A stretch of DNA of 52,886 bases from Bacteroidales bacterium (GTDB taxonomy: Bacteria > Bacteroidota > Bacteroidia > Bacteroidales > PUMT01), in NCBI GenBank assembly GCA_007134675.1, contig SLKJ01000085.1, forward strand, positions 1 through 52,886. Direction: 5' to 3'. A program made the translations under genes and the position numbers. How positions within the stretch are numbered: the first letter of the stretch is position 1; each line of letters begins with the position of its first letter. A model generated the notes under the pieces. The model saw only the letters and a program-made list of their open reading frames with translations. It was not told where the DNA came from and searched no databases. Positions 1,579 through 8,880 of the stretch are shown here, piece by piece.

Positions 1579-2796
1579 TTATTTCCCGGTAAAAAATTCA
1601 TAAATCTGCTGCCCGCTCTTTCTGAGATATTCGGGCGCATTACGGATGGAATCATCTTTGTCAACCGCAAAGTCCATCAGCGAATAAACCGCAGCTGCCC
1701 CGTACTGATCCTTAAGCATCCCCCTCTCCCCCTCCAGCAATCCTCCGACAAGTATCAGGGGTTTATTTCCGGTTCGGGCGATCTGTGCAACTGAGGCAAC
1801 AGCCTTGCCATATGCAGTCTGTGCATCAATATTCCCTTCACCTGTAATAACGAGGTCGGCTGAATCCACTGCTTCACGGAATCCGGTCATCTCCCCAAAT
1901 ATATCAAAACCTCCACGCAACACAGCCATACCGTAAGCCAGGAGGAAAAGTGCAGCACCGCCTGCAGCTCCGGTACCGGGATGCTTGTCCGCATCAAAAC
2001 CTGTGTTTTTCCGGACAAGCGCGGAAAGGTGGCGGAGTCCGTTTTCAAGAATTGCCAGAGCTTCCGCATCAGCTCCTTTCTGGGGACCGTAGACCCTGGC
2101 GGCACCCTGAGGACCGTTAAGGATATTCTGAACGTCGCAGGCAATAATTATTTCAGTATTCCTTAGCCTCTGGTGCACTCCGGTCTGACCTGACCCTGCA
2201 GTTTCAGCGTTTGTTTCCCCGGAAGGGGAGAAAAGAAAGTCCGCCGTGATCTTTTCGATATTCATCAGGTTACCCCCTCGCGGACTGATTTCCTTACCAT
2301 CTTTTCCTGTAAACCGGAAACCCAATGCCGCCGCAATGCCCGTGCCACCGTCAACCGTGGCACTTCCTCCGATTGTGAGAATGATCTTTTTAACTCCGGC
2401 ATCGAGGGCATGCCTTATAAGTTCACCCGTTCCAAAAGTGGATGTTTTCAGGGCATTGCGCTCTTCATGCCTTAGCAGCTCCAGTCCCGATGCACGAGCC
2501 AGTTCAATAACTGCAATATTCTCATAATCAAGAAGAAGATAGCCTGATTTAACCGGTCTGTGCAGAGGATCACATACAGAAAGCTCAGTCCATGTCCCGC
2601 CAAGATGCCAGGCCAGACATGAGGCGGTACCCTCTCCCCCGTCTGCAACCGGGAAAACAATAATTTCAGTATCCGGCGCTGACTCTCCGATACCCTGGGC
2701 AATAAAACGGGCAACCTTCTCCGAAGAGAGGCAATCCTTGAAGGAGTCAGGGGCAATCAGGATTTTTTTTAAAGGGGTAACAGAATGGCGCTTCAT
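1579..2796 (-). CDS. glxK: Glycerate kinase (GlxK/GarK family)
   Basis: This 405-residue protein is a type 1 glycerate kinase, which phosphorylates D-glycerate with ATP and feeds lower glycolysis. Visible hallmarks are the N-terminal APDSFKDCLSS segment (about residues 15-25), DGGEGT near 51-56, GGSATVDGGTG near 143-153, GAAGGA and the ITGEGNIDAQTAYGK block near 316. It is slightly longer than the usual 380 or so residues because of a Gly/Ser/Thr-rich insertion around residues 187-215, just before the conserved CDV motif. It lies 23 bases downstream of an SSS symporter on the same strand, so the two are probably co-transcribed. This makes glycerate or a related sugar acid a reasonable guess for the transported substrate. 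Family assignment is secure; 2- versus 3-phosphoglycerate as product is not determined. Confidence 0.93.
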   Translation of the reverse strand: MKRHSVTPLKKILIAPDSFKDCLSSEKVARFIAQGIGESAPDTEIIVFPVADGGEGTASCLAWHLGGTWTELSVCDPLHRPVKSGYLLLDYENIAVIELARASGLELLRHEERNALKTSTFGTGELIRHALDAGVKKIILTIGGSATVDGGTGIAAALGFRFTGKDGKEISPRGGNLMNIEKITADFLFSPSGETNAETAGSGQTGVHQRLRNTEIIIACDVQNILNGPQGAARVYGPQKGADAEALAILENGLRHLSALVRKNTGFDADKHPGTGAAGGAALFLLAYGMAVLRGGFDIFGEMTGFREAVDSADLVITGEGNIDAQTAYGKAVASVAQIARTGNKPLILVGGLLEGERGMLKDQYGAAAVYSLMDFAVDKDDSIRNAPEYLRKSGQQIYEFFTGK

Positions 2797-2819: not shown

Positions 2820-4298
2820 TCACTTTTTGCCAAAGTATCCGGCACTGACTGTCAAAAGCAAGCCGGTTAATAGTGTCACGCCCGAACCGATAAAGGTGTA
2901 CCATGTCCACGCAATCTCAGTGAACAGGATAACAAATATCATAAAAACAATTCCTGTTAAAAATGCAGGAATTGCCTGTTTTAATTGCGGACTTCGAAAC
3001 AGAACCCCAAGGAAAAATGTGCCTAAAAGTCCACCATAAGTAAACGATGCAATTGACAGAGCCAGCTCAACAACAGCCTGAGAACTTTGCATGAATATCA
3101 GGGCAGACCCCACCAGCAGCAAGGCCCATATCAGGGTTATCAGCCTGGAAATAATTATTTCATTAGCTGCATTTAATCTCTTGTAATATGGAATAACATA
3201 ATCATACATGGTTGCTGATCCAAGTGATGATATCGAGCCTGAAAGCGTTGAAATGGCAGCAGCAAGAAGGGCGGCAACAATGAGACCGGAAAGACCCACC
3301 GGCATTTCCTCAATGATGAACTTTGGAAATACCTGGTCTGAAACTATATCGGCACCTCCGTAAAATGCGTACAAAAGGGTTCCCAGGAATAAAAACAGGG
3401 CAAACTGAATGATTATTATGCCCCCGGTAGTAACCAGTGCTTTCCGGCTGGCAGCCAAAGAACCTGCAGCAAAAAGCCTCTGTACGATAAGCTGATCAAT
3501 TCCGTGTGAAGCCATTGATAAAAACGCACCGCCCAGAATACTTGCTATAAGAGTATATGGAGTGGTAAAAAATCCTTTAATCCCACCCTCAAAAGAGAAA
3601 TTAAACAGATCGAGCTTGTTCTCTCCATATATTGTAGCTATGCCCCCGGTAAGGCCCCCGCTGAGTTGGCCGCTTACGACAATTATCGCTGTTATAACTC
3701 CTGCGAAATAGATCAGAAGTTGTATAACGTCCATCCATATCACTGCCCTGATCCCTCCAACAAAAGTGTAACTGAATGCAACCAGGGCAATTAGCGAAAT
3801 TGAGACAACATATATAGATCCTGTTGACCAGTTTGCTGCAAAAAAGGAAGTCTGGAGTATAAGTGCCAGTGGAATGGCAGTTGCAAATAATCTGACCCCA
3901 TCTGCAGCAACCCTTGTCATCATAAATACACCAGATGCAAGGTTTTTCATTGGTATGCCAAATCTCCCTGAAAGGAAGGTATAGGCAGTTCCAAGTTCGC
4001 CTTTGAAATAAGCGGGAAGGATTACCCATGCTACAATAACTCTGCCGATGAAATATCCAAACGTTAACTGCAGGAAGTTCAGATTGGTCATATATGCTAA
4101 TCCGGGAATACTGATGAAGGTGAGTGTACTGGTTTCCGCTGCAACAATTGCAAAACAGACCGCTAACCATGGAATTTTTTTACCTCCGAGAAAGTAATCA
4201 TTGCTGGATGATTGCTTCCCTGCGATCTTAATGCCAAAAAATGTAACCCCTGCAATGTAAACAATTATTATTATCGTGTCGAGATAGGTGAAATTCAT
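2820..4298 (-). CDS. Sodium:solute symporter (SSS family)
   Basis: This is a multi-spanning inner-membrane protein of 492 residues with about 13 hydrophobic segments. It has the SSS signature near the N-terminus: a SNDYFLGGKKIPW segment followed by a helix with AAETSTLTF. Such carriers couple Na+ entry to uptake of sugars, sugar acids, amino acids or sialic acids. The ORF track starts at 4418, but the first 40 residues are polar, Arg-rich and unlike the family. The internal ATG at 4298 gives the expected N-terminus (MNFTYLDTII), so that start was chosen. The skipped part contains an inverted repeat suited to a regulatory region. Glycerate kinase follows 23 bases after the stop, which suggests a sugar-acid substrate. 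Substrate identity is inference. Confidence 0.88.
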   Translation of the reverse strand: MNFTYLDTIIIIVYIAGVTFFGIKIAGKQSSSNDYFLGGKKIPWLAVCFAIVAAETSTLTFISIPGLAYMTNLNFLQLTFGYFIGRVIVAWVILPAYFKGELGTAYTFLSGRFGIPMKNLASGVFMMTRVAADGVRLFATAIPLALILQTSFFAANWSTGSIYVVSISLIALVAFSYTFVGGIRAVIWMDVIQLLIYFAGVITAIIVVSGQLSGGLTGGIATIYGENKLDLFNFSFEGGIKGFFTTPYTLIASILGGAFLSMASHGIDQLIVQRLFAAGSLAASRKALVTTGGIIIIQFALFLFLGTLLYAFYGGADIVSDQVFPKFIIEEMPVGLSGLIVAALLAAAISTLSGSISSLGSATMYDYVIPYYKRLNAANEIIISRLITLIWALLLVGSALIFMQSSQAVVELALSIASFTYGGLLGTFFLGVLFRSPQLKQAIPAFLTGIVFMIFVILFTEIAWTWYTFIGSGVTLLTGLLLTVSAGYFGKK

Positions 4299-4357
4299 AG
4301 GAGATGTTTTTAATAACCCACAATATAATAAAAACCGGCAATTCCTCTTAATCACTT

Positions 4358-4407
4358 TTATACCACTGGAGGTAAAATAATTACCAGCTCTGCTGATCCT
4401 GGTATAA
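4358..4407. promoter_or_regulatory. Inverted repeat upstream of the symporter, possible operator
   Basis: TTATACCA (4358-4365) and TGGTATAA (4400-4407) form perfect 8-base arms. A second dyad, GGTAA/TTACC around AATAA, is nested between them. The element lies 60-109 bases upstream of the chosen symporter start, a typical place for a regulator site. No regulator gene is adjacent, so function is only suggested. Confidence 0.35.
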
Positions 4408-4601
4408 CCCGGAATCATATCTTGCTAATTTCCAGATATAAAAATAAAAATATTTAAATTCATATTTTGAAATAATTTTAATCAGCCATCTAACGCTTTT
4501 TTTGTCTTATTGATCCATAATTAAGCTATTTTCCAGCGATAACAACAAATTATGAATTCCTGTGTTGTATTATTTATTCCTATTTCCTATAATGCAGAAA
4601 C

Positions 4602-5521: not shown

Positions 5522-6625
5522 TTAATCCTGCGTTAATTCCTGGTAAAGCGCCAGCAGAAAATCCCGGTTATCGGCCGTCAGGTAGTACATCTCCCCTCCC
5601 ATCCGACTGAATGTCTTACAGAAACGCAAATAGTAAGCAGGGTTGTCAGGAGGTGGCTCACCATCTTTTTCCCAGTCCCACTCCAGCCCGGCCAGATCAA
5701 CAACCAGTATGAAATGGTTGTCAATACGGGTCATGTTCTGTATCGCAATGTTCTGTGCCATGGAGAGAGATTTTTCAAATATCATCGGCGACATAACCGC
5801 CGAGCCGACGGAGAGATATACCCCGTGATCAAGTCTGCTGACACTGCTGGCAAAGAGAAGGAAATCACGCAGGGCTGTCCTTCCGAGTGCAGCTCCGTGA
5901 TTCATCGGATGGGTGTAGATAATGTCGCACCCTATCATCGGATGACCGGTAAAGTTAACCCCCAGCTCCCAGGCCGCGGACTGCACAGAATGTTTTTTCC
6001 AGGGATGAGGGATGGACATGAAGCCCGGTTCCAGACTGAACTCGTTGATTACACCGGCCAGGTCAGCAGCAGAAGCCGCCAGTCCCGGATCAGATTCCAC
6101 CTTCTCCCCGGCAAGTTTATACAATAAGCTGGTTTCAGGGATCTGAAGTCCCTCATTGAAAATCATCTTCCCTACAGATTCACCATAACCCAGTCCCTCA
6201 AATGCACCTACATTCAATGCCAGATTGATATAATATCCTGTCTCGTCCCAGATGCCAAACTGTCCCCGACCCACATTTTCCTTAACATACTCACTTGTCT
6301 CTCCCAGGTAAGCAAATTCCCAGTCATGTATTATACCGGCACCGTTTGTAGCAAGGTGAGTCACCCATCCTTCCCCGATCAGAGCTGTCAGCAATGGAGC
6401 CAATCCGTTCTTAATGGCATGGGCGCCAAAGCTCATGATCACTGGACTCCCCCTCTCACGTGCAGTCCTGACCCTCTCAGAGGTTTTCCTGATAAGATCC
6501 ATTTCCCTTTCGGGGAAAACAACAGTTTTGTCCACCGGGACCATGTCCCTTTCGACGGATACCCGGTTTTTACGTTCAGCAAGCCTTTTAAACACCAGTT
6601 TATTCCGGTCAAATATCGGATTCAT
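5522..6625 (-). CDS. Conserved protein resembling deoxyhypusine synthase
   Basis: This 367-residue soluble protein has no signal or membrane segment. The segment THLATNGAGIIHDWEFAYLG (about residues 90-110) closely resembles the NAD-binding loop of deoxyhypusine synthase. A later VYLSVGSAV stretch sits where that family has its Gly-rich strand. I do not see the catalytic-lysine region expected of true deoxyhypusine synthase, and bacteria normally lack eIF5A, so hypusine formation is unlikely. The stop codon of the upstream PfkB-HAD fusion gene is 8 bases away on the same strand, so the two are almost certainly co-transcribed and probably act together, perhaps on a sugar or polyol phosphate. 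Family resemblance is from memory and moderate; function is unknown. Confidence 0.6.
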   Translation of the reverse strand: MNPIFDRNKLVFKRLAERKNRVSVERDMVPVDKTVVFPEREMDLIRKTSERVRTARERGSPVIMSFGAHAIKNGLAPLLTALIGEGWVTHLATNGAGIIHDWEFAYLGETSEYVKENVGRGQFGIWDETGYYINLALNVGAFEGLGYGESVGKMIFNEGLQIPETSLLYKLAGEKVESDPGLAASAADLAGVINEFSLEPGFMSIPHPWKKHSVQSAAWELGVNFTGHPMIGCDIIYTHPMNHGAALGRTALRDFLLFASSVSRLDHGVYLSVGSAVMSPMIFEKSLSMAQNIAIQNMTRIDNHFILVVDLAGLEWDWEKDGEPPPDNPAYYLRFCKTFSRMGGEMYYLTADNRDFLLALYQELTQD

Positions 6626-6633
6626 GCAGATAG

Positions 6634-8535
6634 TTATTTTACGTTTAACAAGCTTAGAATTCTGTCCATGCCGGTAAAGTCGGGAATTATTATATCTGCT
6701 CCGGCCTTTATCAACCGGGTCCGTTTTTTTTCGTTAAGACCAAACCTCTTTACCTCATCCGAAGCCAGACCAACTGTCAAACCACCTCTTTTATGTGTCT
6801 CTCTTATCTCAACAGGTCCGTCACCAAAGGTTACAATATTTTTATGTGCGGATCTGCCAATAGTACTCAGAATTTTTTCAAGAACAATCCCTTTCGCCTC
6901 CTTATTGACATCACCAACAGCTCCATAAATACCCCCATCAAAATAGTGGTCATACCCCATTATGCCGGCTTCCCTCCGTACATCCTCCAGGTCGGTCCCA
7001 CTGGCCAGGTAAAGCCTTATGCCTGCCCTGTGGAGTCTTTCAACAAACAGCACAGCATTTTTGATTGTAAAATCGGTTTCGGCCAGTTCTCCGCTCCTGA
7101 ATTTCTTTTCACGGCTGCGAACCATCTTCAGAAGCTCATCATTATATATTTTTTTATAGCCATGAATATCGAGTATCCGATCCTTCGGCACGAATCCGAA
7201 TTCCTTTACAAGATCAACCAGTGCAGCCATCTGTGCCAGGGTCTGTATTCCTGTGGTTTTGTCTATCAATTCATCAACGCTTCTTTTTACTATATCAAAT
7301 ACTGCCTTACCAGCCGTTCCGTGATTATCTCCAAGGATCGCTCTTATCATCACAGGTGCCATTATTTGCTCCCATCCCTCACGCAGGGTTGAAATTGTAC
7401 CGTCATGGTCAAATATTGCGTGACTGATCCGGACATCTTCGGGCCATTGGTTGATAACTTCAATTTCAGTATTGTCAAGATAGACGGCCTGCCTGATATC
7501 TTCCGCAAGCCCCGGCTCATAGATGTAGTCCGCGTCTTTCCCTATTTCAAGAATCTCTGCAGGCGTAACGGTCCCCTCCCGGAACAGCTTGTTTACAGTA
7601 ACGCCGGCGGCAAATGATCCTATTTGGGCTGAAACACCGGCACTGTAACCTGCGGCCATCGCAGCAGAAACACCTGCCAGATAGCCTTGACCTGCACCTG
7701 AAAGATCAACCCGCCCCAGATGCACCAGTCCGGGAACCTTGACAATACCTGATGAATCAACAGCTATGGATCCCCTGCTCCCGCAGGTTACAAAAACCGG
7801 TTTACCACTTCTTTCGAAAAGGGTTTCTGCTGCCCTGACAGCTTCATCATAAGTGGCAGGTATATCCGGACCGGACCTTATCCCACTCAGAAGTGCTGCC
7901 TCAACATCATTTAATTTCATACAGGTGCCATTATATGATCTCCTCTTGTCGCGGATATCGGAAATGAATATCTTTTCCGGATTCCGCGATATCAGTCCGC
8001 TCAGTTTCTGTTGCATATAATCGGTATGGATACCGGAGAAGACTTGCTGGTATATTATAATAACATTAAACGCATATATCTGTTCATCAAGAATTTCCAT
8101 CAACTGATCTGCCGTTTCATCAGATAGTGAATTGAAATTTCCGAAATCGAAGCGGTTCAGTTCCTGATCATCAACATATAGTTTGCAATACCCATGAGTT
8201 GACCATTTTTTTTCCTGAGTTAGCATACCCGCGATTCCAATAGATGAATCATCCATTAGCCGTAACATCTCCCTGCCGAAAAGATCATTGCCGACAACTC
8301 CAAAAGCCCCTACCTCCTTAACTCGTAAGGAAATAATATTATTTGCCAGGTTCCCAGCTCCCCCGAGGGAATAACTTTGTTCGCGGACCGGCCTGGTGGG
8401 CAATCCGGTCCTGTCCGAAATTTCACTGTCAGAATCATAAGAAAAAAAACAGGCATTGAGGCAGAAATCGCCTACAACAGCAATTTTTACCGATCTGATA
8501 TTTTCAATAACTTCCTTGAGTAAGCTGAAATCCAT
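6634..8535 (-). CDS. PfkB-like (RfaE1-type) kinase domain fused to HAD phosphatase
   Basis: This is a 633-residue fusion. Residues 1-310 follow the PfkB/ribokinase fold closest to the RfaE1/HldE heptose kinase branch: a VVGDFCLNA start and GGAGNLANNI near 58-67. However, the normal DTxGAGD signature reads DLSGAGQ, with Gln283 where the catalytic Asp should be. The substrate Asp of the usual GDxxLD motif is Asn27. The domain may therefore bind but not phosphorylate a sugar. Residues 370-633 form a HAD hydrolase with motif I DHDGT (Asp376, Asp378), a motif II Ser (YLASGTD), a Lys, and motif IV FGDG, so phosphatase activity looks intact. It precedes the deoxyhypusine-synthase-like gene by 8 bases. 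Likely cytoplasmic; substrate unknown. Confidence 0.8.
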   Translation of the reverse strand: MDFSLLKEVIENIRSVKIAVVGDFCLNACFFSYDSDSEISDRTGLPTRPVREQSYSLGGAGNLANNIISLRVKEVGAFGVVGNDLFGREMLRLMDDSSIGIAGMLTQEKKWSTHGYCKLYVDDQELNRFDFGNFNSLSDETADQLMEILDEQIYAFNVIIIYQQVFSGIHTDYMQQKLSGLISRNPEKIFISDIRDKRRSYNGTCMKLNDVEAALLSGIRSGPDIPATYDEAVRAAETLFERSGKPVFVTCGSRGSIAVDSSGIVKVPGLVHLGRVDLSGAGQGYLAGVSAAMAAGYSAGVSAQIGSFAAGVTVNKLFREGTVTPAEILEIGKDADYIYEPGLAEDIRQAVYLDNTEIEVINQWPEDVRISHAIFDHDGTISTLREGWEQIMAPVMIRAILGDNHGTAGKAVFDIVKRSVDELIDKTTGIQTLAQMAALVDLVKEFGFVPKDRILDIHGYKKIYNDELLKMVRSREKKFRSGELAETDFTIKNAVLFVERLHRAGIRLYLASGTDLEDVRREAGIMGYDHYFDGGIYGAVGDVNKEAKGIVLEKILSTIGRSAHKNIVTFGDGPVEIRETHKRGGLTVGLASDEVKRFGLNEKKRTRLIKAGADIIIPDFTGMDRILSLLNVK

Positions 8536-8589: not shown

Positions 8590-8880
8590 TCATCGCAGTA
8601 CCACCTTTGTTATGATAATCTCCCCGGCCTGTTCATTGAGTACCTCCATAATGCGGGTTTTCATGTAGGAAAGTTCATTGCGCAGCACCGGCGATGTAAT
8701 ATGCACATAAAACACCCCCTTTCTGATATATAGTTTTTCAGTCTGCCTTGCTATTGCAGGACCGACAATTGAGGGCCATGAGTTTATAATCCTGGATTCC
8801 GAAACTTTTTTTTCGAGCCTGAATTCTCTGAGGTAATCGGAAATTACCTCTCCGATCGGTTGCGTATTGCTTTTTCTCAT
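8590..8880 (-). CDS. DUF721 (DciA-like) protein
   Basis: This is a 96-residue protein of the DUF721 family. The WPSIVGPAIARQTEKLYIRKG stretch followed by an Arg-Asn-Glu-Leu segment is characteristic. Family members include DciA, the helicase-loading factor that replaces DnaC in many bacteria, though the short Bacteroidetes form has not been assigned with certainty. It lies 82 bases downstream of recF on the same strand, a common DUF721-recF pairing that supports a role in replication or repair. Its length matches the Bacteroidetes short form. No membrane or export signal is present. Confidence 0.82.
   Translation of the reverse strand: MRKSNTQPIGEVISDYLREFRLEKKVSESRIINSWPSIVGPAIARQTEKLYIRKGVFYVHITSPVLRNELSYMKTRIMEVLNEQAGEIIITKVVLR

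Follow-up and report, generated by a model that had tools for sequence, protein, structure and literature searches.

A kinase–phosphatase fusion protein from a Bacteroidales bacterium with a probably inactive PfkB domain and a conserved HAD phosphatase half

The window, the whole 52,886-nucleotide stretch that was analysed, contains a PfkB–HAD fusion gene on the minus strand at positions 6634–8535. The open reading frame starts with ATG, has no internal stop codons and encodes a 633-residue protein, whose layout was derived from Pfam matches and an AlphaFold2 model. Pfam detects a PfkB domain (residues 47–316, E-value 1.2e-20) and a Hydrolase domain of the HAD type (residues 372–577, E-value 1.1e-9), each above its cut-off. 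The HldA-like kinase half (residues about 10–330; 7546–8508, minus strand) was assigned using PF00294, TIGR02198 and its HldA fold, and the C1-cap-type HAD phosphatase half (residues 366–633; 6637–7440, minus strand) using PF00702 and fold matches. Eight nucleotides downstream of the fusion gene lies the gene of its partner, a 367-residue GSU2086-family protein (5522–6625, minus strand), which scores 329 bits with NF052581 against a cut-off of 250 and displays weak similarity to deoxyhypusine synthase and the C-terminal Rossmann domain of ArgZ. A 96-residue open reading frame (8590–8880, minus strand) with a by-eye likeness to DUF721 proteins is located between the fusion gene and recF. Elsewhere in the window, a glycerate kinase gene (1579–2796, minus strand) adjoins a sodium-solute symporter gene (2820–4418, minus strand).

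The full-length AlphaFold2 model of the fusion has a mean pLDDT of 86, and its closest solved structure is HldA. The kinase half is predicted to adopt the ribokinase fold and best matches HldA 4E84, with a TM-score of 0.81 of the target and an E-value of 3.4e-22; the HldA/HldE model TIGR02198 gives 102.8 bits, under its curated cut-off of 345. The HAD half modelled alone has a pLDDT of 89 and has a helical cap inserted after motif I and before motif II. Its fold matches are C1-capped HADs, including β-phosphoglucomutase, the alnumycin P phosphatase AlnB and the phosphatase domain of mannitol-1-phosphate dehydrogenase/phosphatase. A sequence search found no solved relative of the HAD half, the GmhB family model in NCBIfam did not match the fusion at E-values up to 1, and a viral structure library gave no useful match.

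The catalytic motifs of the HAD half are complete. Motif I (D376-x-D378 in FDHDGT; 7402–7410, minus strand) is invariant in 38 relatives and is followed by S512 (SGT), K548 and motif IV (GDGPVE, residues 571–576; 6808–6825, minus strand), which was identified by its sequence and conservation and provides G571, D572 and the further acid E576. All seven of these residues are conserved across all relatives, in agreement with the initial annotation, which had described the HAD half as intact in its DxD, Ser, Lys and GD motifs. Having DxD, S/T, K and GD with a further acid on a modelled HAD fold with a cap, the C-terminal half is predicted to be a HAD phosphatase.

The kinase half departs from its family at two key positions. 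The motif at residues 277–283 is DLSGAGQ, and Asn occupies position 27. The codons, CAA for Gln283 (7687–7689, minus strand) and AAT for Asn27 (8455–8457, minus strand), confirm both substitutions as they had been initially annotated. An Asp serving as the base is said to be common to the PfkB family (PMC6240065), and the catalytic Asp of adenosine kinase makes contact with the hydroxyl group to be phosphorylated (PMC6086891). No acidic residue is found adjacent to position 283 as a substitute. The GGAGN, anion-hole GAG and N-x-x-E residues are still present. The kinase half thus appears to have lost a catalytic residue with its modelled fold otherwise kept, the pattern of a pseudokinase. A second PfkB protein of the window genome (contig C106, locus L080, 3712–4662) reads DSLGSGD at the DTxGAGD motif and keeps the Asp.

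Relatives of the fusion were collected by scanning 84,980 species genomes, which yielded 26 loci, and by further searches within the same genus and the same order. Among the aligned members, PfkB is matched in all 31 and the PF00702 HAD model in 30 of 31. Every other member with data has Asp at column 27 (36/36) and at column 283 (38/38, in GAGD), including the same-genus relatives G007 and G009, which are 66% and 64% identical to the window protein, respectively. The GDxxLD/GDxxxD and GAGD motifs are intact in the kinase halves of all relatives, and residues D27, Y29, W30, E42 and D283 are conserved out to Burkholderia cenocepacia HldA. With Asp at both columns in every other member, the substitutions are private to the window lineage. 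Judged from these sequences, the kinase–phosphatase fusion with an apparently intact kinase is an architecture found across Bacteroidota, and the putative kinase loss is confined to one lineage. The initial annotation had instead suggested a pseudokinase–phosphatase as an architectural type and had named retention of the Asp by homologues as the sign of a private change, which is what the relatives display. A family whose PfkB half generally presents substrate to the phosphatase is suggested by the window sequence alone and was rejected, since both Asp residues are kept in all relatives; we regard it as almost certainly incorrect.

Two further groups of sequences were observed in these searches. 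The fusion family has a deep second branch (L061 and L065–L068), 42–44% identical, in which the genes for GSU2086, the fusion, a ROK kinase and a SIS isomerase are tightly clustered. A Hydrogenedentota contig (locus L056, 5944–6858) encodes a standalone HAD protein that is related to the C-terminal half of the fusion, lacks the kinase half and adjoins a GFO/IDH/MocA oxidoreductase gene, which suggests that the phosphatase half has no strict need of the kinase half.

The two halves of the window protein differ in their departures from conserved sites. At near-invariant sites (at least 93% conserved in other members), the window protein departs at 14 of 80 sites in the kinase half and at 2 of 88 in the HAD half (p = 0.001). 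This kinase-half excess is the largest of any member, followed by that of G007 (7/81 versus 1/87). At sites invariant in all other members, the departures number 7 of 51 in the kinase half (D27N, Y29C, E42R, D157N, N162Y, V279S and D283Q) and 0 of 60 in the HAD half. Without sites 27 and 283, which prompted the finding, the counts are 5/49 and 0/60 (p = 0.016). When the deep 42–47% branch is left out, the Fisher test on conserved sites is weaker (p 0.02–0.13), and the window protein still ranks first. V279S is harmless by itself, with Ser occupying that position in classical HldA; by homology to HldA, several of the other lost residues would sit in the substrate pocket. The GSU2086-family protein encoded next door served as a lineage control: it differs at just 2 of 146 near-invariant sites, so the window lineage as a whole is not fast-evolving.

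These counts also bear on the quality of the sequence. The window genome is a draft metagenome bin of 203 contigs that is 91% complete, and errors of assembly or sequencing could in principle produce substitutions. CAA is at least two base changes from any Asp codon, however, and 14 conserved kinase positions differ whereas the HAD half and the neighbouring gene do not, which makes such errors a scarcely plausible source.

The loosening of the kinase half may have begun before the catalytic loss. Branch lengths estimated for each half with FastTree on a fixed topology give a kinase/HAD ratio of 1.7 on the terminal branch of the window protein and 1.9 on the branch leading to the genus clade, the latter value being the reason to place the onset early. 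G007 and G009 share with the window protein, in whole or in part, W30F and the changes at positions 194, 206 and 315. Because synonymous sites are saturated, dN/dS by half was rejected, and dN and conserved-site counts were used instead. The kinase halves of the window protein and G007 are 62% identical, with no indels, a dN of 0.27 and a saturated dS, and the kinase fold is therefore still constrained and is not a neutral pseudogene.

The genomic setting of the fusion is reduced in the window. Most relatives have a GSU2086-family gene directly beside the fusion gene, and seven loci have no such neighbour. GSU2086 is present in seven genomes that have the fusion and absent from three genus members that lack it. 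Genes near the fusion in relatives encode a GmhA-like SIS isomerase, in many cases a ROK kinase, an AGE-type 2-epimerase and a sodium-solute symporter, and at one locus a GH38 mannosidase. Beside the window gene, only the fusion and GSU2086 genes of this cluster are left, and the isomerase, epimerase and symporter are absent. A search of the window genome for an AGE homologue found none. The window symporter was considered as an orthologue of the cluster symporter and rejected, given similarity of only 39–89 bits. The GH38 gene, in the cluster of locus L060, is similar to mannosylglycerate hydrolase; together with the glycerate kinase and symporter genes of the window, it hints at a possible link to glycerate glycosides.

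This reduced setting, with the deletion of classical hldA described below, would also fit a gene in decay, in which the kinase function was lost with the rest of the pathway, the domain has no role and the whole gene is perhaps on its way out. Full conservation of the HAD half and of the GSU2086 partner, and a fusion reading frame that is intact and indel-free, speak against this; decay is accordingly a possible but unlikely explanation.

Nine genus members were screened with TIGR02198. Six have a classical hldA that scores more than 320 bits and narrowly misses the curated cut-off of 345, and the search detected none in the window genome, G007 or G002. In G012, hldA is located between a β-lactamase-like gene and an HSP20 gene. 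In the window genome, the β-lactamase-like and HSP20 genes lie 111 nucleotides apart with no hldA between them (contig C197, locus L118, 1617–1729), and in G007, priA and HSP20 are about 135 nucleotides apart, with hldA missing there (contig C98, locus L112, about 74094–74229). The missing hldA in both genomes is a true absence at the ancestral place and not an assembly gap, although the missing 9% of the window genome could hold a copy elsewhere. The GAGD fusion of G007 could be a replacement for HldA. The window genome retains gmhA (contig C46) and hldC (contig C28), and its heptose kinase step has no recognised catalyst.

Retention of gmhA and hldC after the loss of hldA, together with the constraint on the kinase fold, would be accounted for if the fusion kinase were still active through an altered mechanism or substrate that tolerates Gln283 and Asn27, and served as the sole heptose kinase of the window genome. 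No relative departs from Asp at either substituted position, however, several further pocket positions have changed and no replacement acid neighbours position 283, so that continued activity of this kind appears distinctly improbable. The HAD half could alternatively act as a sugar-phosphate mutase that converts heptose 7-phosphate to heptose 1-phosphate with no kinase, the dead kinase domain holding the substrate. This idea derives from the resemblance of the HAD fold to β-phosphoglucomutase among C1-capped HADs and from the retention of GmhA and HldC with the loss of HldA and the fusion kinase site; we consider it highly unlikely.

The window protein is probably a sugar-phosphate phosphatase with a catalytically dead, structurally retained kinase domain, reflecting the loss by one lineage within a bifunctional family. 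From the sequence, its conservation, the gene neighbourhoods and the loosened constraint in one half, we infer the inactivity of the kinase, the activity of the phosphatase, the substrate and any scaffold role. The family would comprise bifunctional sugar-phosphate enzymes of Bacteroidota that join an HldA-like PfkB kinase to a HAD phosphatase with a C1 cap. The substrate of the kinase is most likely a sugar phosphate supplied by the GmhA-like isomerase; it would be of the heptose type, a hexose phosphate also being possible. The fused HAD would take off another phosphate, and the GSU2086-family protein would share in handling the product. The window lineage appears to have lost the base needed for catalysis (D283Q), along with the Asp near the N-terminus that binds substrate (D27N) and further conserved residues of the pocket. 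Its protein is now most likely a phosphatase only, in which the kinase domain persists as a folded unit with a structural or ligand-binding role. The dead kinase and live phosphatase of the initial annotation thus appear likely for the window protein, given seven lost invariant kinase sites and an intact HAD half, and do not extend to the family. Two observations run against this interpretation. The retained GGAGN, GAG and N-x-x-E residues make ATP binding or residual turnover possible, and a dead kinase is odd in a genome that keeps gmhA and hldC with no recognised heptose kinase, if the heptose pathway is used.

The finding points to a little-described kinase–phosphatase fusion with GSU2086 as its usual partner. 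Our literature search found no described PfkB–HAD fusion, a result that does not prove that none has been described. The GAGD fusions and their same-genus GAGQ relative form a clean natural pair for the role of a PfkB domain beside a phosphatase after catalysis is gone, and the window genome presents a case in which the heptose genes for the reactions before and after a kinase step are kept, and no enzyme is recognised for the step itself.

Among known systems, HldA (PDB 4E84) is the closest solved protein to the kinase half in both sequence and fold, and the relatives share its GDxxLD, YW, SxE and GAGD motifs. The fusion family differs from HldA in scoring about 100–140 bits against the cut-off of 345 and in having a HAD partner instead of an adenylyltransferase, and the window copy lacks both Asp residues. 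The HAD half resembles C1-capped HAD phosphatases and β-phosphoglucomutase (4EX6, AlnB; 1LVH) in fold and in motifs I–IV, with an identity of only 13–19%. The heptose-bisphosphate phosphatase GmhB would be the pathway step expected beside GmhA and HldA, but the HAD half of the fusion has a cap insert and no match to the GmhB model. The plant fructokinase-like proteins FLN1 and FLN2 are PfkB-type proteins for which a structural rather than a metabolic role has been discussed (PMC3409070, PMC4036507); unlike the fusion, they belong to a plastid transcription complex and have no HAD fusion. In Geobacter, hldE (GSU2085), GSU2086 and gmhA (GSU2087) carry consecutive numbers, and each of them appears in a list of genes affecting electrode growth (PMC5585712). 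They form the same trio of an HldA-like kinase, a GSU2086 protein and GmhA, but GSU2085 is annotated as a kinase and adenylyltransferase, in contrast to the kinase and HAD of the fusion.
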